A DNA stretch of 25,977 bases from a virus: IMG/VR virus record IMGVR_UViG_3300018432_000041, positions 1 to 25,977 of that record. One strand, given 5' to 3'. The notes under the pieces are model-generated. The model did not search any database, had not been told where the DNA came from, and saw nothing but the letters and a program-made list of their open reading frames with translations. Made by a program: the position numbers and the translations under genes. This document shows, piece after piece, positions 1,345 through 25,977 of this stretch (positions within the stretch are counted from its first letter, which is position 1; the number at the start of each line of letters is the position of its first letter).

Positions 1345-1791
1345 ATGGGCTTCAGGCTTAAGGTTAATGGTGAAGAAGTTTGGGAGTCTGAATTCGATGC
1401 TAGTACTGTAACAAACGTTTCTGTTCGTACTGCTGCTGGAGAAGCTACAGCAGTGGGTAGTCCTTCTGGGCATGACTGGGTAGACATTGTATTCACTACT
1501 CTTTCTCCCGGTGAGGAACTTCGTTTCCATTCTAATGCGGAACAGCAGAAGCGTCAGGAACTTGCAGACAAGATTGATGAACTTGAAGGTGATCGAGTAG
1601 AGGAAGGACGTGCCCAAATGGCTGAAGAGGAAAAGAAGAGGGAAGAAGAAGCAGCCGAAGTTGAAGGCGCAGATGTAGAACCAGATGAAAATGCATCTGT
1701 AGCTGGTACGGATTCTCCTGAGTATCAGGATGGTCCTACTAACGATCCTGCATATGATGAAAATCAAGATAAAGAAGAACTTAGTCTGTAG
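1345..1791 (+). CDS. Hypothetical protein with acidic Glu-rich C-terminal half
   Basis: I do not recognise a family. The 148-residue product has an N-terminal half (about 1-65) that looks like a small beta-rich domain, with alternating hydrophobic residues and a VNGEEVWESEF stretch. A charged helical segment follows (about 66-105, rich in Glu, Lys and Arg, probably coiled coil), then an acidic disordered tail. A GGAGG at 1329-1333 lies 11 bases before the ATG, acceptable though a little long. It sits between terminase and portal, so a structural or packaging accessory role is possible but unproven. It ends at the TAG at 1789-1791, just before the ribosome-binding site of the next gene. Confidence 0.75.
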   Translation: MGFRLKVNGEEVWESEFDASTVTNVSVRTAAGEATAVGSPSGHDWVDIVFTTLSPGEELRFHSNAEQQKRQELADKIDELEGDRVEEGRAQMAEEEKKREEEAAEVEGADVEPDENASVAGTDSPEYQDGPTNDPAYDENQDKEELSL

Positions 1792-1800
1792 GGAGTTACA

Positions 1801-2328
1801 GTGAAACTGGTATACGAATGCACCTCTCTGCCAGGACAGTGTTTTATTTGCTGTTCTCCTAACAGAGATTGGTTTATTGACACTCTTATGTCTGTAGACC
1901 GAGATGATCCGTTTTTAGCTAACGGGCATTTGGGTGCTGTATACATTTGCTGTGAGTGTGTTCGTCAAATGGCTACTATGGGAGCTTGGATTTCTCCTGA
2001 CGAATACCAAAACATGAAAGAAACTGCACACATTCAGGCTGGTATGATTTCTGAGCTTACAGAAAAACTAATGGGAATGGAGCAGGCTCTTGATGGCCTC
2101 CGACAAGCTGGTTACACAGTTACTGAGGGTATTGGAGCTACTCGGATTGGGGGCTTTTCTCCACAAATTGATGAGGGACCAAGAGAAAAGTCACCAGAAG
2201 AGAGAAAGTCAGTGGCTACTAGAGAGAGAAAGACTCCTGAACCGATTGATGACGAAGGAATGGACTTCTTACGTTCAGATGGAAGCGAATCTCCAGAGTC
2301 CAGTGAAGGAATCACCCTCGAACTCTGA
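1801..2328 (+). CDS. Hypothetical Cys-rich (zinc-binding type) protein with coiled coil
   Basis: The GTG start is chosen because GGGAG at 1791-1795 sits five bases upstream and the frame begins just after the previous stop. The 175-residue product has CxxCC at residues 14-18 and CCxC at 50-53, plus Cys7, a layout expected for a small two-knuckle zinc site. It is followed by a helical region (about 68-105) and an acidic Ser/Glu/Arg-rich, probably disordered tail. I cannot name the family. Its place between terminase and portal suggests a packaging or head-assembly accessory, but nothing in the sequence shows this directly. A zinc-dependent regulator is an alternative. Confidence 0.75.
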   Translation: MKLVYECTSLPGQCFICCSPNRDWFIDTLMSVDRDDPFLANGHLGAVYICCECVRQMATMGAWISPDEYQNMKETAHIQAGMISELTEKLMGMEQALDGLRQAGYTVTEGIGATRIGGFSPQIDEGPREKSPEERKSVATRERKTPEPIDDEGMDFLRSDGSESPESSEGITLEL

Positions 2329-4398: not shown

Positions 4399-4501
4399 GA
4401 GTGAGAAGCAAGAAAAGCTTATGTGGGCTAAACACCCAGCTATCGCTCGTAGGTGGAAAAAGAAGTACGGCTCTAAAATCGAGAAAAAGGAAAAGAAATA
4501 A
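4388..4501 (+). CDS. Small basic protein, MPFKSEKQ family (37 aa)
   Basis: The frame begins with an ATG inside the last codons of the portal gene and ends in a TAA whose last base is the A of the next ATG (TAATG). The product begins MPFKSEKQEKLMWAKHP and continues with IARRWKKKYG and a Lys/Glu tail. Very similar short proteins (MPFKSxKQ, then a Trp/Met, then a basic helix with a YG) are, to my knowledge, common near structural genes of many unrelated tailed phages. Their role is unknown; the strong positive charge suggests nucleic-acid or acidic-protein contact. Confidence comes from the family resemblance together with the exact fit between genes. Confidence 0.8.
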   Translation: MPFKSEKQEKLMWAKHPAIARRWKKKYGSKIEKKEKK

Positions 4502-4755
4502 TGGCAGATGAGCAAGTTCAGGTTGGGAATAATTTAGGGGTTGCTGCTAGAGGTGGTACTGGTGGTACTAATATTAATGGTGGTAATAATGTAGGGGCTG
4601 GGTTGGATGATGATGATTGTGACACCATTAATGCAATGAGAGCCCGCTTGGCAGCTATTGATGCTGGGTTTTATACTGCTGCGAAAATGAACTCTATGAC
4701 AATGAATGACATGGCGTATGCTATTAGGGTTAATGATAATGCTGGGACGATTTAG
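4501..4755 (+). CDS. Hypothetical Gly/Asn-rich small protein
   Basis: The 84-residue product has a flexible Gly/Asn/Thr-rich N-terminal third (about 8-35), an acidic patch DDDDC, and a C-terminal part that looks helical (INAMRARLAAIDAG, then Met-rich TAAKMNSMTMNDMAYA). It is joined to its neighbours by stop/start overlaps on both sides (TAATG before, TAGTG after), so it is clearly part of the translated unit between portal and scaffold. I do not recognise a family. A minor head or head-completion role is possible by position only. Confidence 0.65.
   Translation: MADEQVQVGNNLGVAARGGTGGTNINGGNNVGAGLDDDDCDTINAMRARLAAIDAGFYTAAKMNSMTMNDMAYAIRVNDNAGTI
4552..4569 (+). repeat. Perfect 9-base tandem duplication, GGTGGTACT x2
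   Basis: Two identical in-frame copies of GGTGGTACT encode Gly-Gly-Thr twice. A further degenerate GGTGGTAATAAT follows a few codons on. This is low-complexity, slippage-prone coding sequence inside the Gly/Asn-rich gene. Confidence 0.7.
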
Positions 4756-4940
4756 TGGTTACTCGACGTCCAATGCCCCGTGGTGAACATTCACGGTATG
4801 AGGATAGAACTGCAGATCGAGTTGCTGCTAGTAAAGGATTTCCTGGTCAGAAGGCGGATTATGAAGAACGTCAGAAAGGCCGTGATCTAAAAGCTGCCGC
4901 TGCAAGGCGTCGTAAGAGGGGTAGTAGCAATGGCCAGTAG
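4755..4940 (+). CDS. Small basic protein with KAAAARRRK motif (61 aa)
   Basis: It starts with a GTG that overlaps the previous TAG (TAGTG); GGGA at 4744-4747 provides a plausible ribosome-binding site. The protein is strongly basic, with RRPMPRG near the start, a charged middle, and LKAAAARRRKR at residues 45-55. The same Ala-run/Arg-Lys motif occurs twice in the next gene, so the two proteins seem related in one functional element. The last 11 bases overlap the downstream start. Family unknown; nucleic-acid contact or a positively charged docking peptide are reasonable guesses from charge alone. Confidence 0.7.
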   Translation: MVTRRPMPRGEHSRYEDRTADRVAASKGFPGQKADYEERQKGRDLKAAAARRRKRGSSNGQ

Positions 4941-5658
4941 GTATGATAAGTCTGTTAAAGTACCTCAAAGTACTATTGATGAAATTAAAAAGCTAGGTAT
5001 GTCTGACGCTATCAAGAAAGCAAACTCGGGTGGAGCTTCTCGGGAGTTTGTTGAAGGTGCCAGGCGATACTATGGTGGTAACAGGGTAAGCGGAACTTCT
5101 CCTGATCGTAACGAATCACAAAGTGGTTCTAGGGGACAGGGTGACTCTACTAATCCATCTGGTAATACTGTAGCTGAGAGTCAGAATGTAATTAAAACTC
5201 AACCTATCTCTTCTACTAAGTCTAAGGGTAGTGGACTTAGTTCTAATTTGAAGGCTGCCGCTGCCCGTAGAAATAAGGCTAAGGGTAGTAAAGAAGAATA
5301 TAAGAGCGCACCTCATCGGAGTGGGGGTAGGGGTAGAAATCCTACTAAGGTTCTGGGAGACTTGGGATCTTCTAAAAACCCTAAGGGTATTCCTCAGACT
5401 GTTAATAGGGCTGCTGGTAATGCTGCTAAAGCGGTTGGTAATTTTGTTTCTGGTGGTCCAGATAAGTCAGCCTCTGAGACAGAAGCTGCGTACAATAAGA
5501 GACTCGAAGCTCTTGGCGGAGTTAAGAGTCGTTACAAGGATTATAAGGAAAAAGGTTGGTCTGATAAGCAGCTTAATTACATGCTCACTGATAAGGAGCG
5601 GGGAAAGAGTGAGAGTTCTAAAGCTGCAGCAGCCGCTCGTAGGCGTAAGAAGTCTTAA
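4930..5658 (+). CDS. Basic protein with two KAAAARR motifs (242 aa)
   Basis: ATG at 4930 is supported by GAGGGG at 4916-4921, eight bases upstream, inside the end of the previous gene. The N-terminus (about 20-52) has a compact helical unit, MSDAIKKANSGG then FVEGARRYYGG, of a type I have seen in small phage head-region proteins but cannot name. A long Ser/Gly/Lys-rich, probably disordered middle follows, with LKAAAARRNK at 107-116. A helical segment at about 186-225 precedes the C-terminus KAAAAARRRKKS (231-242). The overall charge is strongly positive. Lying between portal and scaffold, it could be a DNA- or scaffold-binding head component; that is inference. Confidence 0.7.
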   Translation: MASRYDKSVKVPQSTIDEIKKLGMSDAIKKANSGGASREFVEGARRYYGGNRVSGTSPDRNESQSGSRGQGDSTNPSGNTVAESQNVIKTQPISSTKSKGSGLSSNLKAAAARRNKAKGSKEEYKSAPHRSGGRGRNPTKVLGDLGSSKNPKGIPQTVNRAAGNAAKAVGNFVSGGPDKSASETEAAYNKRLEALGGVKSRYKDYKEKGWSDKQLNYMLTDKERGKSESSKAAAAARRRKKS

Positions 5659-5945
5659 TGGCAGTACCTAAGACGCAACGAATTGTTAAAAAAGTAAAGA
5701 AGCCTGTTCCACCGAATCCAGCAAAAGTTACTAGTGAACGCAAGAAATATGTTGGCGATCTTCTAAATGAGAAGGCTTCTAGGGAGCGGGCTAATTACAG
5801 ACAGCAGCAGAACACAGATAATAAGGAAATGTGTTTTGACTGTGAGTGGTATAAACAACCTGGGGAGATGGAGTCTGCATGTGCAAAAGTTGCAGGCCCT
5901 GTAGCTGCAAGAGATGTTTGTGATTTTTGGACAAGTAGACATTAG
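5658..5945 (+). CDS. Four-Cys HiPIP-like phage protein (95 aa)
   Basis: The start overlaps the previous stop (TAATG). The N-terminal half is basic and Pro/Lys-rich, then a charged helix. The C-terminal 40 residues carry CFDCEWYKQPG, a third Cys in the CAKVAGPVAA stretch and a fourth in VCDFW. Cys positions 59, 62, 75 and 88 give C-x2-C-x12-C-x12-C, close to high-potential iron-sulfur proteins (C-x2-C-x13-16-C-x13-C), with the aromatic and KVxGPV surroundings I associate with HiPIP-like phage proteins. A structural zinc site is the main alternative. The gene immediately precedes scaffold and capsid, so it may be a head component, but its role is unknown. Confidence 0.7.
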   Translation: MAVPKTQRIVKKVKKPVPPNPAKVTSERKKYVGDLLNEKASRERANYRQQQNTDNKEMCFDCEWYKQPGEMESACAKVAGPVAARDVCDFWTSRH

Positions 5946-5954
5946 GAGAGTTTA

Positions 5955-6758
5955 ATGACTATGCCGGCTGAAGGTGGTCAGGGCCTTTCTGAAGGTACAA
6001 CCACTGAATCGGGCCAGGGTACTGAGATTAGTACACAGCCCAGTGATTCTGATTATGCAAATCATTTTCTTTCTCAGATTCCTGAGAATGAGCGTAACAT
6101 TGTTGGCAAGTATGTCAAGCAATGGGACGCAGGAGTAACTCGCAGGTTCCAGGACATTAACAACCGCTACAAGCATTACGATGATTTGGGATGGGATCAG
6201 GATACTACATCTCAAATGGCGGAAATTTATCGAATGCTTAATGAAGAACCTGAGACTCTCTATGAGAGGTTGGGGGAACATTTCGGCGGTCAGGTTAATG
6301 AACAGAACCAGCAGGAGGGACAACCTTCCCAAGAAATCCAGGAGTTTCCACCGGAGATTCAATCTAAGTTTGAACAGGTTGATAAGCTGCACACTGTCGT
6401 TGAGGCACTCGCTCAGCATTTTCTGGATTCTCAACAGTCTCAACAAGAGATGCAGGAAGATTCTGAACTCAATGATTATCTGGAACAGTTACATGAAGAG
6501 TTTGGAGATTACGACGAAGACTATGTTTGTATGTTGTTGGAAAATGGTCTTGATGGGGCAGAAGCTGTCATGAAATGGCAGCAGGTCATTCAAGAGCAAA
6601 TCAACGCTGCAAGCCAAGCTACGTCAGGTATGATTCCTACTCTTTCTAGTTCTGGTGGTGGTGCAGTTCCGATGCCGGAACAACAGAATCTTGGGAAGGT
6701 TCCCTCCAAGGATATTGTTAACATGATTAAAAATGTCCTTGGTTCTGTGAACCAGTAA
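5955..6758 (+). CDS. Capsid scaffolding protein
   Basis: This would be the temporary internal core on which the procapsid shell assembles. The 267-residue protein is highly acidic and Gln/Glu-rich with a disordered N-terminus (Ser/Thr/Gly, about 1-35), a long helical and probably coiled-coil middle, and a short C-terminal helix with Lys residues (KVPSKDIVNMIKNVLG) of the kind that contacts capsid protein in known scaffolds. It lies directly upstream of the major capsid gene, the standard place. AGGAGAG at 5944-5950 provides a strong ribosome-binding site before ATG 5955. The assignment rests on composition plus synteny; sequence conservation of scaffolds is low. Confidence 0.8.
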   Translation: MTMPAEGGQGLSEGTTTESGQGTEISTQPSDSDYANHFLSQIPENERNIVGKYVKQWDAGVTRRFQDINNRYKHYDDLGWDQDTTSQMAEIYRMLNEEPETLYERLGEHFGGQVNEQNQQEGQPSQEIQEFPPEIQSKFEQVDKLHTVVEALAQHFLDSQQSQQEMQEDSELNDYLEQLHEEFGDYDEDYVCMLLENGLDGAEAVMKWQQVIQEQINAASQATSGMIPTLSSSGGGAVPMPEQQNLGKVPSKDIVNMIKNVLGSVNQ

Positions 6759-6776
6759 TTGAAAGGGTTTGTTTAA

Positions 6777-7976
6777 ATGGCATCTGCTACAATGACCACT
6801 CTGGACGCTATTCTGAAAGAAGTCTACGGTCCTCGCATTGAGACTCAGCTTGTTGACGAGAATGTTGCTCGTAAGCGGATTGAGCGCACTTCTGATGGTG
6901 TGGTCGAAACCGTTGGTGGAAAGTATGTTGACTTTCCTATTCATGTAACTCGTAACACTGGTATTGGTTGGCGGCGTGAGGAAGAAATTCTTCCTGCTGC
7001 TGGGCGCCAGGGTTATGCAGAAGTTCACGTTCCGCTGCAGTATGGTTATGGGCGTGCAAAGATTACTGGTCAGGTTATGGAGCTTGCTGAAACTAACGTT
7101 CAGGCATTTGCTTCTGGTCTTGACCAGGAAATGACTCGTCTTAAGGATGACATTGCAAAGGACGAGAATAGGATTACCTATGGTGACGGTAACGGCCTTC
7201 TTGCTAGCGTTACTGCTGACGGAGTTAACACAGTTACTGTGGACAATATTCAGTACCTGGAAATTGGTATGCTCATTGATATTCGTACTCGTTCCAACGG
7301 TGCTGCTGTTATTTCGTCACGAACTATTGACGCTATCAACGAAACCACCAAGGTAGTTACTTATTCTGGTGCAGATGCGGCAGCTACTGCTACAGAGGGT
7401 ATTTACCGTGAAGGTAACTACGCTGGTGGTACTAGGCGAGAGCCTGCTGGTTTTGATCTTATTGTTTCTGAAACACTTCCTCTGCATGGTCTGGACCCCG
7501 CTCTGCAGCCGAAGTGGAAAGCTACTGTTCGTGCAAACGGTGGAACTCCTCGGGCACTTTCCGAAGGTCTTATGATCGAACTGTGTGACGCAGTTCGTAC
7601 TAAGGGTGGGAAGACTAGTGCTATTTTCACCAACCTGGGTGTTAGGCGAGCTTATTTTAACTTGCTTACCCAGCAGCGTCGTTACACTGATACGAAAGAG
7701 TATGCGGGTGGATTCCAGGGGCTTCCGTTTAACTACGGAACCGAAGTCCCAGTAGTTGAGGATGTGGATTGCAAGCCCAACCGTATGTACTTTATTGACG
7801 AAGACAAGATTAAGATTTTCCGCAGCAAGGAATGGCACTGGGCTGACAAGGATGGATCTATCTTTAAGTGGGTCCATGACTATGACATTTGGGAAGCTCT
7901 TATTAAGAGCTACTACGAGTTCGGTACTGTTCGCCGTAACGCTCAGGGCGCATTGATGGACTTGATTGAAGGGTAA
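6777..7976 (+). CDS. Major capsid protein
   Basis: The 399-residue product follows the scaffold gene and has the size and layout of an HK97-fold shell protein. There is an N-terminal helical arm, then an E-loop-like beta region rich in Gly/Arg (GIGWRREEEILPAAGRQGY), a spine helix region (VQAFASGLDQEMTRLKDD, about 105-122), a Thr/Val-rich insertion (about 140-215), and a C-terminal domain with FNYGTEVPVVED and a final helix. AAGGG at 6763-6767, nine bases before ATG, is a good ribosome-binding site, and the gene has a rare true gap in front of it (6759-6776), fitting high expression. Family membership is inferred from position and fold-like pattern. Confidence 0.88.
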   Translation: MASATMTTLDAILKEVYGPRIETQLVDENVARKRIERTSDGVVETVGGKYVDFPIHVTRNTGIGWRREEEILPAAGRQGYAEVHVPLQYGYGRAKITGQVMELAETNVQAFASGLDQEMTRLKDDIAKDENRITYGDGNGLLASVTADGVNTVTVDNIQYLEIGMLIDIRTRSNGAAVISSRTIDAINETTKVVTYSGADAAATATEGIYREGNYAGGTRREPAGFDLIVSETLPLHGLDPALQPKWKATVRANGGTPRALSEGLMIELCDAVRTKGGKTSAIFTNLGVRRAYFNLLTQQRRYTDTKEYAGGFQGLPFNYGTEVPVVEDVDCKPNRMYFIDEDKIKIFRSKEWHWADKDGSIFKWVHDYDIWEALIKSYYEFGTVRRNAQGALMDLIEG

Positions 7977-7978
7977 AA

Positions 7979-8476
7979 ATGGATAAATCTCTGCAAGAAA
8001 TTCAACGTAAACATCTGGTTGCTCTAGGTGAAGGATATTATGTAGAGCGAGATGTCTTACGAATTGTAGAGAAAGTCAGAGAGTATGATAGCGCTCTCCG
8101 AGTGAAGTTTTTAGCTGAGGCTTCTTCACTCGGAGACGCTCCATACTGTATTACGGAGATTTGTAAAGATGGTGTGGAACGTGTTGTTATGTTTATCTGG
8201 GATCTCGACGATACTGTCATTGAACGACTGTATGCTGCAGATACTCAGCAGTTCAATGTCTTGGGGGATCTTGACGCCAAAAACCTTCAAGCATTAGCAA
8301 ATCAGAATAGAAGATTTAGAGAAGAACAAGATCAAGCTCTGGATATTTCTAAGCACATTTTGAAATCACCTAAGGGTACTTACTCTTTCACTGACGAAAT
8401 AGACGGTCAGAAAAGAAAAGTTACTGTGGATGATGACCCTACATCCGGTCCTGCTAAGGTAGAATGGACTGACTAA
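7979..8476 (+). CDS. Hypothetical protein downstream of capsid
   Basis: The 165-residue product is charged and mixed alpha/beta. It has an N-terminal helix, a central region with CITEICKDGVERVVMFIWDLDD that looks like a beta-hairpin domain, a helical Gln/Arg/Asn stretch (about 99-125), and an acidic C-terminus. GAAGGG at 7968-7973 precedes ATG 7979, and the stop overlaps the adaptor start (TAATG). I cannot name the family. Between capsid and adaptor, a head-completion, decoration or assembly role is the natural guess, but no motif decides it. Confidence 0.75.
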   Translation: MDKSLQEIQRKHLVALGEGYYVERDVLRIVEKVREYDSALRVKFLAEASSLGDAPYCITEICKDGVERVVMFIWDLDDTVIERLYAADTQQFNVLGDLDAKNLQALANQNRRFREEQDQALDISKHILKSPKGTYSFTDEIDGQKRKVTVDDDPTSGPAKVEWTD

Positions 8477-9171
8477 TGCCTGTACCCGCTACTGATGTCA
8501 CAGCCGCTGTTAGAGCAATAATCGGAGATAAATCCTCTCTTATTGTCGAAGATACTGAAATGCTTACTTATCTTCGTATGGCGGCTAGGGATATCGCTAG
8601 GCGCACGAAGGTACTAAAGCAAGTCGCTACTCTATCCGAAGCTACTGTAGCTGCACAGGGTTATGTTGTGTTTGATGGTATTGCTGCTGGTACTGGGGTT
8701 GCCGAGATTGATGAAGTAATTATTACTGGGTCTGGTCAAGTTAAAGAATTACAATATGCATCGAATGATCTACTCAGACAATTATTTACAGATCTCACAG
8801 CCCAGGGATTCCCAGAGTATTATAGTGTGACTAGAAGCGATGCCGCTGCTGATACACTAACTCTATTCCTGTATCCAGTACCTAACCTTAGTACCTTCAC
8901 ATTGACTATTAGCTACTATTTAATTCCTACACTTGCTACAGTTGCTACAGCAATACAACTTCCAGTCGATTATCAACATGCAGTATTCTTGTTCGTTCTC
9001 TGGAAATGTCGTCAGCAACTAGAACAGTGGGAACAGGGTGAAGTCGCTAAGAGGGATTATGAATTAGAAGTAGCCTCGTTGGAATACGATGTACACTCTA
9101 TTGATGGAGAATATCCATCAATACGTGTACTTCCTGGAGACTATGGGGATTCGCTCTATGGCCCGTACTAA
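8476..9171 (+). CDS. Head-tail adaptor protein (T7 gp11-like)
   Basis: The 231-residue product resembles short-tailed phage adaptor proteins, which bind below the portal and carry the nozzle. It has an N-terminal helix pair with the pattern TYLRMAARDIARRTK (residues about 33-47), a central beta-sandwich rich in Val/Thr/Gly (about 55-150), and a return to helices with LPVDYQHAVFLFVLWKCRQQ (about 158-177) and a final charged helix. That helix/beta/helix plan and the place between capsid and nozzle match gp11-type connectors. The start overlaps the previous stop (TAATG). The last 14 bases overlap the next gene. Sequence similarity to T7 itself would be low. Confidence 0.75.
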   Translation: MPVPATDVTAAVRAIIGDKSSLIVEDTEMLTYLRMAARDIARRTKVLKQVATLSEATVAAQGYVVFDGIAAGTGVAEIDEVIITGSGQVKELQYASNDLLRQLFTDLTAQGFPEYYSVTRSDAAADTLTLFLYPVPNLSTFTLTISYYLIPTLATVATAIQLPVDYQHAVFLFVLWKCRQQLEQWEQGEVAKRDYELEVASLEYDVHSIDGEYPSIRVLPGDYGDSLYGPY

Positions 9172-10672
9172 ACTACAATTAGATGGGTTTGGCGGGCTGA
9201 ATACAAAATCTCCTGCCCATATGCTCAAAGATAAAGAATTAGCAGTATGTCAGAATTTTTATTTTGGACAGGACGGAGAACTTAGAAAGCGTCCAGGATT
9301 AAAAAGACTGGCCAATACTATAGATAGTAGTTTGCCTAGCTATAGTGAAAGTTCAGTACTGTTGTGGTCCCATTGGGCTAGCGCTGTCACAGACCCGCAG
9401 GTGTGGTTTGCAGCGGGATCTACTGTGTATAAAAGTAACTCAGATGCAAACTTTGTAAATCCTGGATTCGCAGCCATGAATATTCATTGGGCTGAATCAT
9501 ACAATGGAGCGCTGTATCTAGGAACAACAGCACAGATTAAACGTGTAGATGGAGATAGTACATTAGTTACATTAGCTAACTCACCTATGCGTTCAGATCA
9601 TGGGTGTTTCCACAAGAATAGATTATTTGTTTCGGATAATGGTGTGACGGCTCATAATATTATCTGGTCCGATGCACCTGGAGATCCTAGTTTTCCAGTT
9701 CCGTATACTGATTGGCCAGCTACAAATACCTGGACTATTGGCGGTTCAGGATACACTGACACCATTCACATGCTGGTTAGTTTTAATGATATTCTGTATA
9801 TCTTTAAGAAGCGGAGTATTTGGGCTCTGCATGTGCAAGGAGATTCCCCCGCTAGCTGGACTCTTCGGCTTATTAGCAAAGACTTTGGATGTTCAGCTAG
9901 ACATGGAGTTATTGTAGTAGAGAACTACATGTATTTTATTGGGACTACATCTCTCAATAAAAACGTATTTGTTAAAACAGACGGATATACGTTTGCTGTT
10001 GTTTCCGATCCTGTTGAGCCGTTAATGAATTATGAGGATAGACCCTTTGAATTAGTTTGGAATATGTCTGGATTTACTCCAGTTCGTTATGATGATAATA
10101 TTCTGTTTCTGCGTTATGAATTGACAGGGTCTGATTTTCTACATCTAGTTCTTTGCTATAACTATAAGTTAGATATATGGTCTACCTGGTATTTTCCCAA
10201 CCACTACATCACAGGACTACTGCAGGGGTATTCGGGAAGTACTAATAGGTGGGTTATTTATGCTATGGGGATGACGGTAGTTGGGAATGTTTCTGGTATG
10301 TATAGATTTTCTAACTTAGGTGATTCTACTGATCTAGTTTTTGCAGATCAGGATCTTGGGTATCAGTCTAAATTCCGTACTAAGGAATTTATGAGTGGTG
10401 GATCTGAGTATCAAAGAATTCTACAGGGAAATCTAGACTATGAGAGCGCATCTGCTATAGACGCCAGATATATTACTGAGGGTGGGACCACAGAGCTACC
10501 TGTAGCTGCTGCTGGCGGGACTCGTTCTAATATCAAGGTAGCAGGTCCTCAAACCTGTAGGCGTGTATCATATGAATTTGATGATGTTAGTGTTACTAAC
10601 AATTTGAAAGTTTATTCATTTGGAATAGATTTTAGTAAGAACGCCAGTCAAGGTAAGGCAAAGGCTAGTTAA
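9158..10672 (+). CDS. Tail nozzle / tubular-B-like structural protein
   Basis: The frame is open from 9089, but ATG 9158 is preferred: GGGG at 9145-9148 sits nine bases upstream, and the product then begins MARTKLQLDGFGGLNTKSP. This 504-residue protein opens with a phrase typical of phage tail beta-propeller proteins (GFGGLNTKSPAHML, then VCQNFYF and LRKRPGLK). The body is dominated by Trp/Tyr/Gly beta strands in repeated blocks such as YNGALYLGTTAQIKRV and FNDILYIFKKRSIW, as expected of propeller-like nozzle subunits (T7 gp12, P22 gp10 type). It follows the adaptor gene directly, overlapping it by 14 bases. The exact family is inferred. Confidence 0.75.
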   Translation: MARTKLQLDGFGGLNTKSPAHMLKDKELAVCQNFYFGQDGELRKRPGLKRLANTIDSSLPSYSESSVLLWSHWASAVTDPQVWFAAGSTVYKSNSDANFVNPGFAAMNIHWAESYNGALYLGTTAQIKRVDGDSTLVTLANSPMRSDHGCFHKNRLFVSDNGVTAHNIIWSDAPGDPSFPVPYTDWPATNTWTIGGSGYTDTIHMLVSFNDILYIFKKRSIWALHVQGDSPASWTLRLISKDFGCSARHGVIVVENYMYFIGTTSLNKNVFVKTDGYTFAVVSDPVEPLMNYEDRPFELVWNMSGFTPVRYDDNILFLRYELTGSDFLHLVLCYNYKLDIWSTWYFPNHYITGLLQGYSGSTNRWVIYAMGMTVVGNVSGMYRFSNLGDSTDLVFADQDLGYQSKFRTKEFMSGGSEYQRILQGNLDYESASAIDARYITEGGTTELPVAAAGGTRSNIKVAGPQTCRRVSYEFDDVSVTNNLKVYSFGIDFSKNASQGKAKAS

Positions 10673-12096
10673 TGGGTTTAGCTCTGGGTCTAACTAAAAT
10701 TGATGTCCTCACCTATAAAACGTCACCAGAACGTTTTGTAAATCTTATCGAGGATAACTTTAGGCGGATTCAAGACTACTCGTTTAGTACGCCTACCCAA
10801 ATGTTGAACGGTATTGAATTATATGCTCCTAACTCTGCACCTTATATTGATTTCCACAGGGCAATAGACCCGTCTGGAGATGCTGGCGCAGATTACAATA
10901 TGCGGCTGGTAAATGGTGCTGCTGGGGAATTACAAGTTTTAGGTGGTAAGTTTGTAGTTAATAGTTCTACCGGTACTAATGTAGTTTCTACTGGTACAGG
11001 TGGCGGTTATGAATTTGCTGAACGAGATTCACTGACTAATAAATGGGTTTGGTATGCAAATGCCAGTAGAGCTAGATTGTGGCGTGGTGGAGATTTAGTT
11101 ACTGTAGATACTGGTGGTAGAATTTATAGTGGATTAGCAGCAATGGGTACACACCCAATTCATAGTACTTATGCTTGGTTTGGACGAGCCGATCAAGCGG
11201 CTGCACAGAACTATGCACTTCTTATTATGACTAATGAGACTCTTCTCAATGGCCCTAATGGTGTGTATCTTTCTGAAAATGGGACTGTTCGTTTTTATGT
11301 TACTGCCAGTGAAGTTCATACCGCTGTAAGGCTTAATGTCAGTGGCGGTCTCAAAGTGTGGTCTGACTGGTTGAGAGTCAATGGAAATGCTGGGCTGAAC
11401 TGGGATACACACGGCGGTCAGTTCTTCATGCAGGACGGCACCTGGATTCGAGCTAATCGAGGTATCTATACACCGAATCCATATGCTATTATGAGCGAGG
11501 GAAAAGTTGTCGCCAACGCTCAATATGGTAGTACTGGGTTTTATATTTATAATGACACTGACACAAACCATCGAATTTGGTATGACCACGGAACTGGTGG
11601 TGATACTTGGACAGGTTGGTTATTTGTTAAGCTTGCTGATGTTGACAATGATATGTCATTTGAGGTGGGTAGAGGTGGCACTAATCGTCACGTTAACGTA
11701 GCAAGTAGTGCTTGGAAAGTTTCTGAGGCTTTAGCTCACAATAATATGTCAGACCCTCGTTTTAAGGAGAGTATTCAACAGCTAGAAGAACAAAAAGAAC
11801 TTGTAAAAACTATTAAACCTATTAAGTTTAAGTGGGACGAGAAGCATGATCCTGAACAAACAGGACGTGTTCGTTACGGGTTCAATGCCGATGAATTACC
11901 TGAGCAAGTTACTAACACTTCCTTTCTTATTGATGAAGAAACAGGTGAGCCAGTTGAAGTAAAAATGATGGACCCTGTTGGCGTGTTAGCTATATTGTGG
12001 GAAGCGTTCCTTGAAGAGGAAAAAGGGAATATTGCTTTGGAACATAGAGTAGCTGCCATAGAAAGAAAGTTGAATAGTGGAAATAAAACCCAATGA
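10672..12096 (+). CDS. Tail fiber with C-terminal S74 intramolecular chaperone
   Basis: This is the likely receptor-binding fiber. The N-terminus (about 1-55) is probably the virion anchor. The middle is a repetitive beta-rich, Gly/Asn/Thr-rich shaft beginning PYIDFHRAIDP and DYNMRLVNGAAGELQVLGG. The last 115 residues form a peptidase S74 domain: the cleavage box SDPRFKES has Ser360 and Lys365, the S+5 Lys dyad known from endosialidase-type fibers, followed by IKPIKFKWDEK and RYGFNADELPEQV. In that family the domain trimerises the fiber and then cuts itself off. The start overlaps the previous stop (TAATG) with AAGG at 10661-10664. At 474 residues it is short for a fiber. Confidence 0.88.
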   Translation: MGLALGLTKIDVLTYKTSPERFVNLIEDNFRRIQDYSFSTPTQMLNGIELYAPNSAPYIDFHRAIDPSGDAGADYNMRLVNGAAGELQVLGGKFVVNSSTGTNVVSTGTGGGYEFAERDSLTNKWVWYANASRARLWRGGDLVTVDTGGRIYSGLAAMGTHPIHSTYAWFGRADQAAAQNYALLIMTNETLLNGPNGVYLSENGTVRFYVTASEVHTAVRLNVSGGLKVWSDWLRVNGNAGLNWDTHGGQFFMQDGTWIRANRGIYTPNPYAIMSEGKVVANAQYGSTGFYIYNDTDTNHRIWYDHGTGGDTWTGWLFVKLADVDNDMSFEVGRGGTNRHVNVASSAWKVSEALAHNNMSDPRFKESIQQLEEQKELVKTIKPIKFKWDEKHDPEQTGRVRYGFNADELPEQVTNTSFLIDEETGEPVEVKMMDPVGVLAILWEAFLEEEKGNIALEHRVAAIERKLNSGNKTQ

Positions 12097-20791: not shown

Positions 20792-20988
20792 TAGCTGGCT
20801 CCATCAGGTTCTCTTACTATTCCCTGTATAGCTTGCAAAGCTTTCAATGCTTCCTTTAATGCACGCTTAGGATTCCACGCCCAACCATCGGCAGATAAAC
20901 CATACCCATTATCTACATGCCAATCCCAACTAGGATCTACCTCAACATGACCGGACACATACTCTAATGTAATTGTTACTTTACCCAT
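20791..20988 (-). CDS. Small hypothetical protein (65 aa)
   Basis: The start lies within the end of the resolvase-like gene (8-base overlap). The product begins with beta-type sequence (MGKVTITLEYVSGHVEVDP), has a Trp-rich loop with SWDWHVDNGYG and DGWAWNPKRA, then an amphipathic helix, ALKEALKALQAIQG. I do not recognise a family. Position in the replication/recombination operon is the only functional hint. Confidence 0.6.
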   Translation of the reverse strand: MGKVTITLEYVSGHVEVDPSWDWHVDNGYGLSADGWAWNPKRALKEALKALQAIQGIVREPDGAS

Positions 20989-21409
20989 GTTTCCAGAGTC
21001 CTTGTTTGTGAAGGTATGTTACTGCGTGACAGAGTGCATCCTGGTAATGCTTACCTTGTGTGGGTTTAGCCGGTAGACCCATCAACCTAGCACCTATAGT
21101 CTTATCACTAGGTTGCTGTAGCACGAAGTTAATATTGTTATCCCAACATATATACTGAATAGCTCCAATGATTCGGGCCGGACCTACGCTACTCCAAAGG
21201 TGGCTGTAGCCGGCCTTATTTACTGGCCTGACTTTGTAATCCTCAACTATACAGATGTCTAACTGGTAATCATATCTACTAGTTAGTCTGTCACGGAGGA
21301 AAGGATATAGTTCTTCTACGTGTTGTAAGTTTCCAAATTCTTTAGGGGTACAGTCCTCAAAGATTGCCCAACCTGTAGTTTCTCCAGGGTCAAATGATAT
21401 GAGCTTCAT
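20981..21409 (-). CDS. RuvC-like Holliday junction resolvase / RNase H-fold nuclease
   Basis: The frame is open to an ATG at 21436, but ATG 21409 is chosen because AAGGA lies ten bases upstream and the resulting protein starts MKLISFDPGETTGWAIF, right at the first strand of the fold. This 142-residue product has the RuvC acid pattern: first Asp in the strand-1 motif (FDPGETTGW), a Glu in CIVEDYK, and a late Asp in HYQDALCHAVTYL. Resolvases of this kind cut branched DNA before packaging. Length and motif spacing match small phage RuvC-like enzymes. Substrate preference cannot be read from the sequence. Confidence 0.85.
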   Translation of the reverse strand: MKLISFDPGETTGWAIFEDCTPKEFGNLQHVEELYPFLRDRLTSRYDYQLDICIVEDYKVRPVNKAGYSHLWSSVGPARIIGAIQYICWDNNINFVLQQPSDKTIGARLMGLPAKPTQGKHYQDALCHAVTYLHKQGLWKHG

Positions 21410-21419
21410 AAGCAAAAGG

Positions 21420-21424
21420 TCCTT
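21420..21424 (-). promoter_or_regulatory. Shine-Dalgarno AAGGA deciding the resolvase start
   Basis: Minus-strand AAGGA, ten bases before ATG 21409. The alternative ATG at 21436 has an A/T-rich leader with no purine-rich site. Confidence 0.5.
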
Positions 21425-21448
21425 TGTTTTTTTCATACAAATTTTTTT

Positions 21449-21486: not shown

Positions 21487-22152
21487 TTACAGGTCGTCGA
21501 AGTCCAAGGTTGGGGGGTCCTTCGGAGAGTCCTCTGAGACGGCCTCAGATGGGCCTACAAGCTCTGAATCGGAGCCAACAGGGTCTTCTGTGACGGCCAA
21601 TCCCCCACTATTTTGCAACTCTATTTCTGATAAACTAACTAACTTGGCGGCCCTAAAAAGATGAACCATTTCTTGATAATCTAGGTGTGTGTTTAGTTGG
21701 TACGCATCAATGAAAGCATTTAGTGCTTCTACTGAGCCTAAGGATTTAGCTGCTTCTTGTAGAGTTTCTTTATTAAGCTGGCCTAATGCTAAATTGAGGT
21801 GTCTATTTACTTTTCTACCAAATCTGTTACAGAGCGCACACCTACAGCCTAACATGAATCTAGCATACGATCCGTGCTGAGCCAGCTCTTCTTTAACCAG
21901 GAGAGGTATCCTTTTCTTTCTAAGATTATATGCGTGCCACTCGCAAAATGAATCAGCTAAACTAACATACATCCTACAATCAAGATATCTGCAAATAAAA
22001 TTGTACTCTGTCTCACCAGATTCTAGATAGTTTTTTCCACCAGGGACTCGTTCCATACATTGTTTATAATCAATACAGAGATATCGAGTTTTATCAAAGG
22101 ACAGGACTAGAGTATCGGGACTCTGTTCTGTATCACAATATCCGCAGTTCAT
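21487..22152 (-). CDS. Multi-zinc-site protein with SSB-like acidic C-terminal tail (221 aa)
   Basis: Three Cys/His clusters are visible: CxxC at 3-6 with Cys26 and Cys32; Cys54, Cys59, Cys70 and His73; and a C-terminal cluster at 93-108 (HGSYARF, then GCRCALC). The last resembles a His-Gly...GCRCxxC element that I associate with actinophage DNA-associated proteins. A helical domain follows (about 120-175), then an acidic disordered linker ending TLDFDDL. That acidic/aromatic end recalls the docking tips of SSB and of T7 replication proteins, and the helicase at the right edge has a similar end. The start overlaps the upstream stop as ATGA. A DNA-binding or primase-like helper is plausible but not shown. 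Confidence 0.7.
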   Translation of the reverse strand: MNCGYCDTEQSPDTLVLSFDKTRYLCIDYKQCMERVPGGKNYLESGETEYNFICRYLDCRMYVSLADSFCEWHAYNLRKKRIPLLVKEELAQHGSYARFMLGCRCALCNRFGRKVNRHLNLALGQLNKETLQEAAKSLGSVEALNAFIDAYQLNTHLDYQEMVHLFRAAKLVSLSEIELQNSGGLAVTEDPVGSDSELVGPSEAVSEDSPKDPPTLDFDDL

Positions 22153-22307
22153 GTTTGCTCGGTATTCTTTTTATCTAGTTCATTAGTTTCTTTATAAGCA
22201 TCAAAACATTCAGGGCTACAGAGATAAACTCTATTATCAGGTTCACCCATCTTACGAACAGGGATAACTCTAGCGAGGATAGGGTTGGCACACATATAAC
22301 ATTTCAT
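22149..22307 (-). CDS. Small zinc-finger protein, CxxC...CxxxC (52 aa)
   Basis: This short frame bridges a 151-base gap and overlaps both neighbours by ATGA, which strongly supports it. Cys3 and Cys6 (KCYMC) pair with Cys30 and Cys34 (LCSPECFDAYKE), a pattern like FCS/MYM/TRASH-type zinc knuckles (second half CSxECF). GGGA just before the ATG and GAAGG upstream provide ribosome-binding signals. The remainder is charged. Function unknown; it belongs to a run of Cys-pair proteins in this operon. Confidence 0.75.
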   Translation of the reverse strand: MKCYMCANPILARVIPVRKMGEPDNRVYLCSPECFDAYKETNELDKKNTEQT

Positions 22308-22651
22308 TCCCACACCTTCCCCGGTCCCGCTGTAGGATTATGCTCATAGAAACAATCATGGGGTGAGCAACTATGAATTGAACACCACGCTTTAGCATGA
22401 GAGACAGGTTCTGGGTATGATTGTTCTATTGTTTTAATAGCTTCTGTGATTGAGTCTACTGTCACCACATCTTTGTCTTCAGCATACATCCACTTACGTC
22501 TATCTTCCATAGCATTACGAACAGCTATCAAGTTAGTATACATCAACTCAGCCAATATAAAATCTGGCATCTCTGTTTCATTATCCATGCTGTGTTTATT
22601 GATGAGTTTAGTTAGCTCATCTACAAAGGCTTTATGGCTGTCAAGATTCAT
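22304..22651 (-). CDS. Hypothetical helical protein with Cys/His-rich C-terminus (115 aa)
   Basis: The N-terminal 90 residues are helical with a pattern of alternating hydrophobic and charged residues (HKAFVDELTKLINKH, then DFILAELMYTNLIAV and RNAMEDRRKW). The end carries CSIHSCSPHDCFYEH, four Cys/His-dense positions that could bind a metal. A GGAGGAG lies about twelve bases before the ATG, and the start overlaps the upstream stop as ATGA. I have the impression that the N-terminal pattern occurs in many actinophage accessory proteins, but I cannot name it. Confidence 0.7.
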   Translation of the reverse strand: MNLDSHKAFVDELTKLINKHSMDNETEMPDFILAELMYTNLIAVRNAMEDRRKWMYAEDKDVVTVDSITEAIKTIEQSYPEPVSHAKAWCSIHSCSPHDCFYEHNPTAGPGKVWE

Positions 22652-22776
22652 TCTGACTCTAACTCCTCCGGCTCACCTTCCCAAGTACAGTTCTCATTCT
22701 CGCATACAATCAAATCTTGGTCTGGATACTTAGTGAGATAGTTACCTGAGTGGCAGATTGGACACTTGACTGTCAT
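22648..22776 (-). CDS. Small zinc-ribbon protein, CPIC...CENENC (42 aa)
   Basis: The frame fills a 121-base gap and overlaps its neighbours by ATGA on both sides. GAGGGG lies four bases before the ATG, a good ribosome-binding site. Cys5 and Cys8 (KCPICHSG) and Cys25 and Cys30 (IVCENENCTWEG) make a small zinc ribbon of the kind seen in transcription- or replication-associated ribbons. The tail is acidic. No function can be named; the start and fit make it a real gene. Confidence 0.75.
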   Translation of the reverse strand: MTVKCPICHSGNYLTKYPDQDLIVCENENCTWEGEPEELESE

Positions 22777-23042
22777 ATTCCCCTCAACTTGAATATATAA
22801 TACCCATCCCCCGGATAGGCATAGTCATAGTATATCTTAGGAATTCGCACAAGCTCTTGGTCAACATCTGTTGCTACCTCAGATGACGCAATACCCTTTA
22901 TCTCTACTTGTGGGGTATCAGCCATGATTATTTCTTTTTCTAGTGTAGGAACATAGAGAACCTTGCCGTCATATAATCCACCAAGTAACTGCACTCTAAT
23001 AGAGTGGGCATCTGGGTCTTCTTCTGATCTATAGTATGGCAT
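22773..23042 (-). CDS. Hypothetical protein (89 aa)
   Basis: The start overlaps the upstream stop (TGATG). The product looks like a small beta domain: YDGKVLYVPTLEKEI in the first half, and a C-terminal phrase KIYYDYAYPGDGYYIFKLRG that I have seen as a recurrent signature in actinophage small proteins. No catalytic motif or membrane span is present. Position between the polymerase and the small zinc proteins suggests an early accessory role only. Confidence 0.65.
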   Translation of the reverse strand: MPYYRSEEDPDAHSIRVQLLGGLYDGKVLYVPTLEKEIIMADTPQVEIKGIASSEVATDVDQELVRIPKIYYDYAYPGDGYYIFKLRGI

Positions 23043-23350
23043 CAGTCAGGAATCTTTCTATTAGCTGCTTGCCATGCAGCCGAAGCTTGCAGATGAAAGT
23101 AGTCAGCTATTTCCTGTAGCCGCTTCATATTCTCTTCTGCCCACATAGAAATAGAGGGGGGTGCCTTCTTCATTAGCTCTAATGTAGCCATGATACAGTT
23201 AGCATAAGCATCTAGTGCTGGCGCAGCGAAGCAATCTTGTCTACGAATTACTATTGCATCCTTGACTGGGGTAAGTCTTTCAGTACTGTTATCCTGAACC
23301 CAATCTTCCCGCTTGAATACTATATATTTGTCATCTTTGGGGAGTGCCAT
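23042..23350 (-). CDS. Hypothetical protein downstream of the polymerase (102 aa)
   Basis: The start is coupled to the polymerase stop by TAATG. The N-terminal third is beta-like (YIVFKREDW, then DAIVIRRQDCF), and the rest forms helices (LDAYANCIMATLELM, then NMKRLQEIADYFHLQAS). It is an alpha/beta accessory protein of unknown family. No zinc pattern is seen here, unlike most of its downstream neighbours. Confidence 0.65.
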   Translation of the reverse strand: MALPKDDKYIVFKREDWVQDNSTERLTPVKDAIVIRRQDCFAAPALDAYANCIMATLELMKKAPPSISMWAEENMKRLQEIADYFHLQASAAWQAANRKIPD

Positions 23351-25080
23351 TACTCACAGTCCTTTGCTAGCAGCTTAACATCAACGGGAAAAGGTATGCG
23401 AAATCTTTCATCCCTACTAGCCCATTCAAGACAGAACTTAATACGTTCTATCTCATCTGCGAGATGTCTCTTAGGTATCTGTACCAGCAATGAGTCATGC
23501 ACAGTAGATACCATCTTACTAGGTCCCTTTGAGTTATAGACATTGATAATACCGTACTTCATGATCTGATGGGCTCCACCCTGGATCAATCTGTTCCAAG
23601 CTTTCTTTGCTTCATAGAACACTTGGAATTCAGTACGGTGTCCAGTCCACAGATTAATATAACCTTGCTTTTCCGCTTTGTAGTTTACTTCGTGTGCCTT
23701 GCTATACAGCTTAGAGTACAATCGGTGATATCTGTTCTTGAAATCTTTAGCTGCATTAAATGTCAGCCCCAGTTCAGATGCAAGACGCTCCGGCCCACCC
23801 AGATACAGCAATAGGAAGTTAGTCATCTTCCCATCTTGACGAGTAATACCCAGCATGTTAGATGTTAGCTCATGGAAGTCGGCACCAGTAGAATATGCTT
23901 CTAAGATCCGCTCTTCTTTGGCGTAGACGGCGGCAAGACGGTATTCGATCTGGGAATAATCGAATTCATAGAGATAGTGATCCGGTTCAGCGCAGAAAAG
24001 TTTTCTAACGGGTGTTTCTTCAAGGTTGCGAGGAAGTTGTTGTAGATTTGGTTGAGAACTGGTAAGTCTTGTTGTAACAGTTCCGATCTGGTTGAAGTGG
24101 GTGTGAATTCTACAGTTATCGTCACAGAATTCCGGCAAGCCGACATACCACGTACTCCTAGCTTTCTGTAGCCCACGATATTCGATTACCAAGTCTACAA
24201 TGGGGTGCTTGTACTTAGACAGCGCAGCTTCATCCATATCTGGCTGACCATTAGGAAATGACTTAGTTGGGGTGTACTTCTTCTTCTTTGATGCGTATGT
24301 CGGCTCAAATCCTAACTCTTCAAAGAGAACTCTCGCCAAATCAATACTTTTTGCAGGATCAAACTTTAAGGTGTCTTTTATTTCTTGCATTCGTGCATAT
24401 GACTCATCATCTAGCTTGTTAGCTGCTGGAATATCGAACTGCATACCGCTATACTCTAATGTAGCCAATGCACGACAGTATAGTTCCTCTTCTTCCCACA
24501 GTTTCCAAAGATCGCTTTTTTCCAACAATTTTTTTAGCACATGGAACAGATTATACGTGAGCTTAGTATCTTTACACGCATAGGGCTCCATGACACTAGC
24601 AGGGATTTGATCCCACCGCTTATACTGCTTTTGGGCTACAGCCATCAACTTCTTTTCGTGGTCTGCATTCTTGTCGATACCGTACAGCTTTGCCAGTTCT
24701 TTCAATGCATGAGTCCCGTTAACCTGCAACAGGTGACTCATTATCATAGTATCGTAGAATGGCTGCTCTAAGACTATTTTGTCTCTTCGGAGGATGTTGA
24801 GGTCGAATTTTGCGTTGTGAAATAGGAGTTGATTAGGTCCCTTAAGTCCTGTTGCAAGCTTAGAGAGATATGCGACCGGAAGGTTATTTGTATTCCCATG
24901 CCTGAATGGGAAATAGAAATTTGCGGCCTGTCCTGACTGTAGTTTACCATAAGTACTCACCCCAAGCAGAATACGGCTTTGCCACGATGCTGTCTTGTAT
25001 GTTTCTGTGTCGATAGCTAGAGTATCTATCTCGCTAAGATAGGCTAGCGCTTTGTCGAACTTATCCGCAGTAATAAGCAT
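23350..25080 (-). CDS. DNA polymerase, family A, with 3'-5' exonuclease
   Basis: This is the phage replicase, 576 residues, without a 5' nuclease domain (T7-like size class). The proofreading domain shows Exo I (AIDTET, Asp24/Glu26), Exo II (HNAKFDLNILRRD, Asp93) and Exo III (YACKD, Asp171). The polymerase domain shows SSQPNLQQLPR (341-351), motif A DYSQIEYR (Asp374), motif B with Arg414, Lys418, Phe422 and Tyr426 (RQDGKMTNFLLLYLGG), and motif C VHDS (Asp529). Motif C usually reads HDE, so Ser530 is unusual; the catalytic Asp is kept. It starts where the helicase stops (TAATG), so the two are translated together. Confidence 0.95.
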   Translation of the reverse strand: MLITADKFDKALAYLSEIDTLAIDTETYKTASWQSRILLGVSTYGKLQSGQAANFYFPFRHGNTNNLPVAYLSKLATGLKGPNQLLFHNAKFDLNILRRDKIVLEQPFYDTMIMSHLLQVNGTHALKELAKLYGIDKNADHEKKLMAVAQKQYKRWDQIPASVMEPYACKDTKLTYNLFHVLKKLLEKSDLWKLWEEEELYCRALATLEYSGMQFDIPAANKLDDESYARMQEIKDTLKFDPAKSIDLARVLFEELGFEPTYASKKKKYTPTKSFPNGQPDMDEAALSKYKHPIVDLVIEYRGLQKARSTWYVGLPEFCDDNCRIHTHFNQIGTVTTRLTSSQPNLQQLPRNLEETPVRKLFCAEPDHYLYEFDYSQIEYRLAAVYAKEERILEAYSTGADFHELTSNMLGITRQDGKMTNFLLLYLGGPERLASELGLTFNAAKDFKNRYHRLYSKLYSKAHEVNYKAEKQGYINLWTGHRTEFQVFYEAKKAWNRLIQGGAHQIMKYGIINVYNSKGPSKMVSTVHDSLLVQIPKRHLADEIERIKFCLEWASRDERFRIPFPVDVKLLAKDCE

Positions 25081-25977
25081 TAAAAATCAAGGTCCTCTAT
25101 ATCTGATGCCGACTCTTGAATTACAGTTTCTTCTCGCACATCAACTGTAGTTTCTTCTTCTTCGTCAATCTCAATTAATGGGTTGAATCGTTGCTTAGAC
25201 TTGTCTACCTTCTTGTGAAGGTCATAGTTGAGGTTCTTGTCCTTGATAATTGAGAATGGTTGTTGAAGTGGAGCCATTCTAATCTTCAAGGGGATTACTT
25301 CTGCATCATCCTCATAGATATTACTCTTCCACAGAGTAAATACTGCTGATGCATCCGCTGTAATGAATGTGCTACCAAATACATCTGAAAGAGTAGTAGG
25401 TTTCTTGTTACCCGCTCCTGCTTTCCTGTTGTGGTGGATAAACCAAACGAATATACCATATCGTTTGGTCATCTGAGCTACCCAGTTCAAGATAGGTCTA
25501 ATCTCTGTGTCCAAAGACATATCATCGACAGCAGAACTAAGTGCGTCTATCACAATCCCATCAAGTTCATACTTCTTTATATTTTCTTCGACGAACTCCT
25601 GATTTTTTTGATTGGTGAACTTCAAGTCTTCGCCGATAGCCCAATACTTTATGTGTTGATTGATCTGTTCTAGCTGCTCGGGTGTATACGCTAGGATTTG
25701 CTTCTTCCTAAAGTACTGTAGCTGAACAACACCCATCTCCAATGAGAATACACCTATCTTCAACGGGACAGGTATGTTAGCACCCAGGAAAGGTTGGCCT
25801 AATGCAGCCTTAGTAGTAAAGTCCAAACTAAAGCTAGTTTTACCTACTCCTGGCGGTCCTGTTAGGAATAGGATTCCACCCTTTTCTAATCTATTCTCCC
25901 AAGCCCAATCGAGATGAATTTCTAAGTTCTGAAGTTCTAGTTCTGATAGGGCTTCGGTGAGGGTAGGATCATAGGAT
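25080..25977 (-). CDS. RecA-fold replicative helicase-like ATPase (5' end outside the window)
   Basis: The frame is open to the window edge, so the N-terminus is missing; an in-frame TTG at 25826 is inside the domain and is not the start. Visible are Walker A GPPGVGKTS (25859-25833), the following strand-helix FSLEMGVVQLQYFRKK (DnaB/RepA type), Walker B DGIVIDALSSA (about 25563-25531), and the later FVWFIHHNRKAG element. This order is that of AAA_25/RepA-like hexameric helicases. The C-terminus is acidic and ends ASDIEDLDF, like the terminal Phe tail of T7 gp4 that docks on its polymerase. No primase domain is seen in the visible part. It is translated together with the polymerase. Confidence 0.88.
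   Translation of the reverse strand, partial: SYDPTLTEALSELELQNLEIHLDWAWENRLEKGGILFLTGPPGVGKTSFSLDFTTKAALGQPFLGANIPVPLKIGVFSLEMGVVQLQYFRKKQILAYTPEQLEQINQHIKYWAIGEDLKFTNQKNQEFVEENIKKYELDGIVIDALSSAVDDMSLDTEIRPILNWVAQMTKRYGIFVWFIHHNRKAGAGNKKPTTLSDVFGSTFITADASAVFTLWKSNIYEDDAEVIPLKIRMAPLQQPFSIIKDKNLNYDLHKKVDKSKQRFNPLIEIDEEEETTVDVREETVIQESASDIEDLDF

Follow-up and report, generated by a model that had tools for sequence, protein, structure and literature searches.

IMG/VR virus record IMGVR_UViG_3300018432_000041, the whole of which (25,977 bases, probably a fragment) is referred to here as the window, has its terminase, portal and major head genes on the + strand; its right-hand end is occupied by a replication module, on the - strand. 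This module encodes, in order, the C-terminal 298 residues of a primase-helicase-type ATPase, a 576-residue family-A DNA polymerase, small open reading frames (ORFs), a 221-residue Cys-rich protein and a RuvC-like protein. The present work concerns the C-terminal tails of the ATPase and the Cys-rich protein (below, the helicase and the zinc protein), which were likened in the original prediction to the acidic, aromatic tips by which replisome proteins of bacteriophage T7 bind their polymerase.

The helicase gene (25080..25976, - strand) runs past the edge of the window, and the ATPase half alone lies within it. By sequence similarity its product, previously described as a helicase-like ATPase, represents the C-terminal portion of a phage primase-helicase: it matches PHROG 239 (DNA primase/helicase, E=2e-20), PHROG 19 (DnaB-like, E=6.5e-19) and the Pfam families AAA_25 (2.5e-19) and DnaB_C (4e-9), which places it among replicative superfamily 4 (SF4)/RecA-type primase-helicases, and it is 32-34% identical to five full-length IMG/VR relatives. 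The helicase ends ...ETVIQESASDIEDLDF, with the tip ASDIEDLDF encoded at 25083-25109 and the stop codon at 25080-25082; the last 32 residues (25083..25178, - strand) contain 14 D/E and 1 K/R. The stop overlaps the start of the polymerase gene in the sequence TAATG (25078..25082, - strand), and the codons of the tail lie outside the polymerase gene. The polymerase (23350..25080, - strand) has a 3'-5' exonuclease domain (Pfam DNA_pol_A, 6e-62; DNA_pol_A_exo1, 3e-17) and is encoded, as predicted, between the two tailed proteins, together with several small ORFs. The zinc protein (21487..22152, - strand) ends ...SEDSPKDPPTLDFDDL, with the tip TLDFDDL at codons 21490-21510, and its last 39 residues (21490..21606, - strand) contain 11 D/E and 1 K/R. 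Both tips were therefore found where they had been predicted, each after an acid-rich stretch, the disorder of these linkers being judged from composition alone.

Relatives of the helicase were collected from five IMG/VR records by seed searches and from 167 phage records by tblastn, chiefly Microbacterium and Arthrobacter phages, and two motif scans of IMG/VR returned 11 and 56 stretches. The nearest named record is Manatee Spring podovirus MW202795, with ~35% identity in the helicase and 34% in the polymerase. Exact-seed searches of IMG/VR with the zinc protein, the polymerase and the RuvC-like protein gave no relatives, and neither did a comparison of the window DNA with phage records. Gene families were compared in 15 related records, twelve taken in full and three partial ones, the window among them, which together hold 685 ORFs called by a longest-ORF rule and not by annotation. 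The helicase family used here has 49 members besides the window, falling into 25 clusters at 70% identity that are not fully independent of one another. The primase half of the relatives is, we presume, of the RepA/archaeal-primase-like type, unlike the TOPRIM type of T7, and the window holds no primase half. In one clade (L062-L110) the primase-helicase is split: 27 of 49 helicase-family ORFs are 400-450 residues long, and the primase half is a separate upstream ORF.

The helicase tip is conserved in kind among these relatives. The kept feature is a hydrophobic-x-hydrophobic end at the C-terminus, which is L-D-F in the window and mostly FxL, IxI, FGI and the like elsewhere (for example RFKL, DKFEL, GFEL, NPYGI, NPFGI, NSFLGF, PSLGL, DNDIKL and DDDGFEL). 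This pattern was found in 16 of 25 helicase clusters, compared with 3 of 73 control clusters of polymerase, RuvC, portal and nuclease proteins (P=1.5e-9), a comparison for which the pattern had been widened after the second data set had been seen. Duplicate loci (L020, L022-L024), short ORFs, matches to part of a profile and the window itself were left out of this comparison, and the helicases of DS1 and L016 were added by hand. A narrower pattern was present in 9 of 15 relatives in the first set, that is, in the data that suggested it; fixed beforehand and applied to new records, it picked out 5 of the 11 helicase clusters (17 of 34 sequences), compared with 1 of 33 among the controls (P=0.0022). 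By both counts the hydrophobic tip is conserved above background, which gives good support to a docking tip on the helicase. A by-product of the overlap between the helicase and polymerase genes was considered and rejected, because the tip is present in relatives whose helicase stop precedes the polymerase start (G003, G004, G009 and L084) as well as in the window, and it is therefore not imposed by overprinting. Longer overlaps occur in several relatives that lack the tip, such as Arthrobacter phage Casserole, MW202795 and L096, while G001 has a long overlap and yet carries the tip.

We propose, at a probability of roughly 0.45 and thus tentatively, that the helicase tail docks at a partner, for which the polymerase is the best candidate, and that the tail of the zinc protein, probably not a single-stranded DNA-binding protein (SSB), imitates the helicase tip. 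The helicase tail would then be a C-terminal docking peptide, in which a flexible linker ends in hydrophobic-x-hydrophobic at the carboxyl terminus. By analogy with T7 gp4 and plant Twinkle, the tip would most likely hold the helicase ring to a partner protein at the fork. The family-A polymerase, whose gene follows directly downstream, is the best candidate for this partner, and the zinc-protein tail may compete for the same site. The polymerase is a plausible receptor by position and by precedent. With regard to position, it lies directly or closely downstream of the helicase on the same strand in 33 of the 33 relatives in which both were found. With regard to precedent, the acidic tails of T7 gp4 are reported to bind basic patches of gp5 (PMC12593628, PMC8472574), of which one sits close to the thioredoxin-binding domain and the other at the front (PMC12593628), and the terminal Phe of T7 is reported to be essential (PMC12230644). 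The last of these also reports that Arabidopsis Twinkle lacking its 10 C-terminal residues binds the organellar family-A polymerase ~25-fold more weakly; the extension concerned is non-acidic, so that a C-terminal extension need not be acidic in order to bind a family-A polymerase.

The window resembles the T7 gp4/gp5 system in that a primase-helicase with an acid-rich tail ending in Phe is encoded beside a family-A polymerase. The plant Twinkle/AtPolIB pair (PMC12230644) is comparable in its short C-terminal extension on the primase-helicase and in a coupling to a family-A polymerase without T7-like acidity, although the extension is positively charged in the plant protein. Likeness to T7 ends with the details. 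Residues 14-549 of the window polymerase are collinear with residues 22-579 of Klenow, and when it was aligned with Klenow and Taq through the thumb, an alignment that did not include the T7 enzyme itself, no insertion of the size of T7's thioredoxin-binding domain was seen, so that the T7 patch near that domain has no counterpart. The comparison with T7 made in the original prediction proved apt as an analogy (PMC12593628, PMC12230644, PMC8472574), with the helicase beside the polymerase and a hydrophobic tip kept, while it did not extend to the terminal Phe, the acidity or the thioredoxin insertion. No match was found between helicase and polymerase C-termini within genomes, which is expected, since the polymerase would be the receptor, and is uninformative. 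If the tip docks at the polymerase, tethering of helicase to polymerase by a C-terminal peptide would also operate in these phages, whose primase-helicases form a separate group and whose polymerases are Klenow-like, and selection there would act on the hydrophobic end and not on acidity or a terminal Phe. A literature search found no mention of the C-terminal tips of this phage group, which is no proof of absence in print.

Several observations weigh against this proposal. The tip is missing from 9 of 25 helicase clusters, and exact residues are not kept, a terminal aromatic residue (F/W/Y) being present in 1 of the 49 helicase relatives. A net charge of -2 or lower over the last 15 residues occurs in 25 of 49 helicases and in 15 of 34 polymerases, and acidity therefore fails to distinguish the helicases; nor is a hydrophobic last residue special (38 of 49 helicases, also 17 of 29 RuvC proteins). 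The end of the zinc protein, D-D-L, does not fit the tip pattern fixed beforehand, and the protein has no full-length homologue, none having been found by exact seeds in IMG/VR. In addition, large terminases of this lineage (window 1-1251, and relatives) have acidic and aromatic ends such as GGIW, GYGDYY and FFLGEDW, and a tip of the helicase kind on a protein encoded next to the terminase is a hint that the tip may have a receptor other than the polymerase. On these figures neither T7-like docking by a terminal Phe nor acidity can be taken as a trait of the family, and both were rejected as such. Conservation in relatives, which had been suggested as a check on the tails, therefore holds for the helicase in the kind of its hydrophobic tip and does not hold for terminal acidic or aromatic residues.

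The terminase-adjacent zinc-ribbon protein (TAZ; 1801..2328, + strand) lies between the terminase and the portal and ends ...SSEGITLEL, a tip like that of the helicase. It consists of a zinc ribbon, a long helix and a low-complexity tail, with a mean predicted local distance difference test (pLDDT) score of 75.7 in an AlphaFold2 (AF2) model; no solved structure matched the fold at E<1, and of two viral matches at E<=0.001 one is labelled uncharacterised and the other has no name. The TAZ family has 10 members in the first 15 records and matches in 17 of 26 further records, and the CxxC...CxxC ribbon present in most of the first members is lost in many of the new ones. The helicase tip pattern was found at the end of TAZ in 11 of 21 clusters (P=1.3e-6), a count in which G019 is represented by a weak, wrong ORF and which is unchanged by this, as neither G019 ORF has the tip. 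Within single genomes the tips of the two proteins can be near-identical, as in G003 (RFKL in both) and G004 (DKFEL in both), and in Casserole the two proteins share LEFGF/LDFGF. This raises the alternative that the hub on which the tip docks is not the polymerase but some phage or host protein to which TAZ binds as well, and that the tips co-vary through this one receptor. The similarity of helicase and TAZ tips within genomes ranked at the top of 84 role-pair tests (10 genomes, P=0.0004 and 0.001), but the match had been noticed before it was tested and is borderline after correction for the 84 tests (0.03-0.08). Leaving out G003 and G004 gives P=0.07 and 0.10. The 14 new genomes give P=0.15 (anchored) and 0.04 (local), and all 24 genomes together P=0.0007 and 0.0004. 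No match was seen in G009, G011 and MW202795. The tip was present in both proteins in 13 genomes, in the helicase alone in 5, in TAZ alone in 1 and in neither in 5 (Fisher P=0.05); for this pairing the better-scoring ORF was used as the TAZ of G019, and G016, G017 and G032, which have TAZ, were left unpaired, no helicase end being available for them. Sharing of a tip between SSB and helicase within genomes, as in T7, gave no signal in 7 genomes (P=0.13 and 0.99). TAZ is a better partner for the helicase tip than the zinc protein is, with weak replication in the new records. We consider docking on such a hub unlikely, though well short of negligible, while a receptor common to helicase and TAZ is an interesting possibility and not a finding.

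If helicase and TAZ do use one receptor, competition between peptides could link replication and packaging. It might even be that unrelated proteins, namely the primase-helicase, TAZ and here also the zinc protein, carry one genome-specific tip for one receptor, and that TAZ, acting late, could displace the helicase and so help the switch from replication to packaging, an extension that we regard as quite improbable. The near-identical tips inside single genomes would make the receptor easy to fish for.

It is also necessary to ask how readily two such tails would arise by chance. The tripeptide LDF occurs within the last 8 residues in these two ORFs alone among the 685. Nevertheless, for 68 of the 685 ORFs the terminal tripeptide is repeated close to some other C-terminus within that ORF's record, so that the LDF match of helicase and zinc protein is suggestive and not proof. 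A rule requiring a net charge of the last 10 residues of -2 or lower and F, W or Y in the last 4 is met by 46 of the 685 ORFs (40 of 651 outside the window). Within the window 6 of 34 ORFs meet it, namely the helicase, the zinc protein, the large terminase (...GLEYDW) and three others, and therefore the acidic/aromatic property by itself does not single out replication proteins. When the last 30 residues of each protein were shuffled, 10.5% of the shuffles of the zinc protein and 12.4% of those of the helicase met the same rule. These figures agree with the view that the tails are generic acidic/hydrophobic phage C-termini, serving solubility, nucleic-acid mimicry, autoinhibition or as degradation tags, and that the likeness of the two proteins is a coincidence. 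Such a view leaves unexplained the enrichment of the helicase tip over four control families, which was also seen in records fetched after the pattern had been fixed. As an account of both tails it is in our judgement rather improbable; for the zinc protein taken by itself it is quite possible.

The zinc protein carries CxxC and HG(S)...GCRCxxC motifs and is an orphan with no family match at E<0.1. Nothing below E=0.17 was found in PHROGs and nothing in Pfam or NCBIfam; against 50,697 phage records, two Pectobacterium phages alone gave partial matches, at E 0.3-0.6. No homologue was found in 40 related records at E<=1, a search made without a positive control and hence a weak negative. A single-sequence AF2 model had a mean pLDDT of 42.1 and is uninterpretable. 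Around HGS...GCRCxxC its residues 61-121 are similar to the final part of orf71 from Pectobacterium phage Arno162, with 35% identity over 62 positions. Arno162 orf70 and orf71 share with the zinc protein the HNH-associated motif HG(S/T)xxxYxxGC(R/K)CxxC, but an upstream CxxC...H...H, which on reading looks like an HNH core, is missing from the zinc protein, and neither Arno162 protein has a Pfam match. Assignment as an HNH endonuclease was rejected, since the best PHROG HNH match was no better than E=0.22, there was none in Pfam, and the accessory motif alone was in common. Membership in the zinc-finger family X of the relatives was likewise rejected, as the profile of that family did not pick up the zinc protein.

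The original prediction had suggested that the zinc protein may be SSB-like or assist the primase, with its tail tying it to the polymerase. It does lie in the replication module and shares LDF with the helicase, and replication-module zinc proteins of relatives also have acidic/aromatic ends (...DPFDGFDF and ...DQDDPFA in DS1, ...FQMEDF and ...DPFSFDLFAES in G012, ...LDDFLNL in Casserole). A flexible tail with a hydrophobic tip is, moreover, what bacterial SSB and T7 gp2.5 have, and the SSB-like proteins of the relatives end similarly (NPFA, NPFG or EPPF-like). However, the zinc protein falls outside the SSB sequence families, with no SSB, OB-fold or primase family match and no SSB match among PDB sequences, and each of the 36 related records in which both were found has a separate SSB-like gene upstream of the helicase, a place that is beyond the window edge in this phage. 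The tip was found in 1 of 10 clusters of family X. Together with the lack of a homologue in the 40 records and the uninterpretable model, this makes a docked SSB or primase helper very improbable; an SSB in particular is unlikely, and that candidate was rejected. The best reading of the zinc protein is that of an orphan accessory protein of the DNA module with several zinc knuckles, whose tail imitates the helicase tip.

Among the SSB-like proteins of the relatives, of which the G012 member matches PHROG 378 (E=1.4e-6), most end NPFA, and the Sak4-like proteins of one clade end EDDEPxFVGETN. In L025 (G012), acidic, aromatic tails are shared, at positions 3375-11106, by a Sak4-like ATPase, an SSB-like protein, the helicase and two zinc proteins. 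In the window the gene adjoining that of the zinc protein (20981..21436, - strand) is RuvC-like, of the resolvase family, and matches PHROG 1981 (2.3e-14, function unknown) and PHROG 1770 (Holliday junction resolvase, 5.5e-4); its family has 12 members. On the other side, a 54-residue protein (22149-22313, - strand) has a CxxC...CSPxC zinc motif and no family match. Finally, an acid-rich ORF of 148 residues that ends ...DKEELSL lies at 1345-1791 (+ strand), between the terminase and the zinc-ribbon protein.

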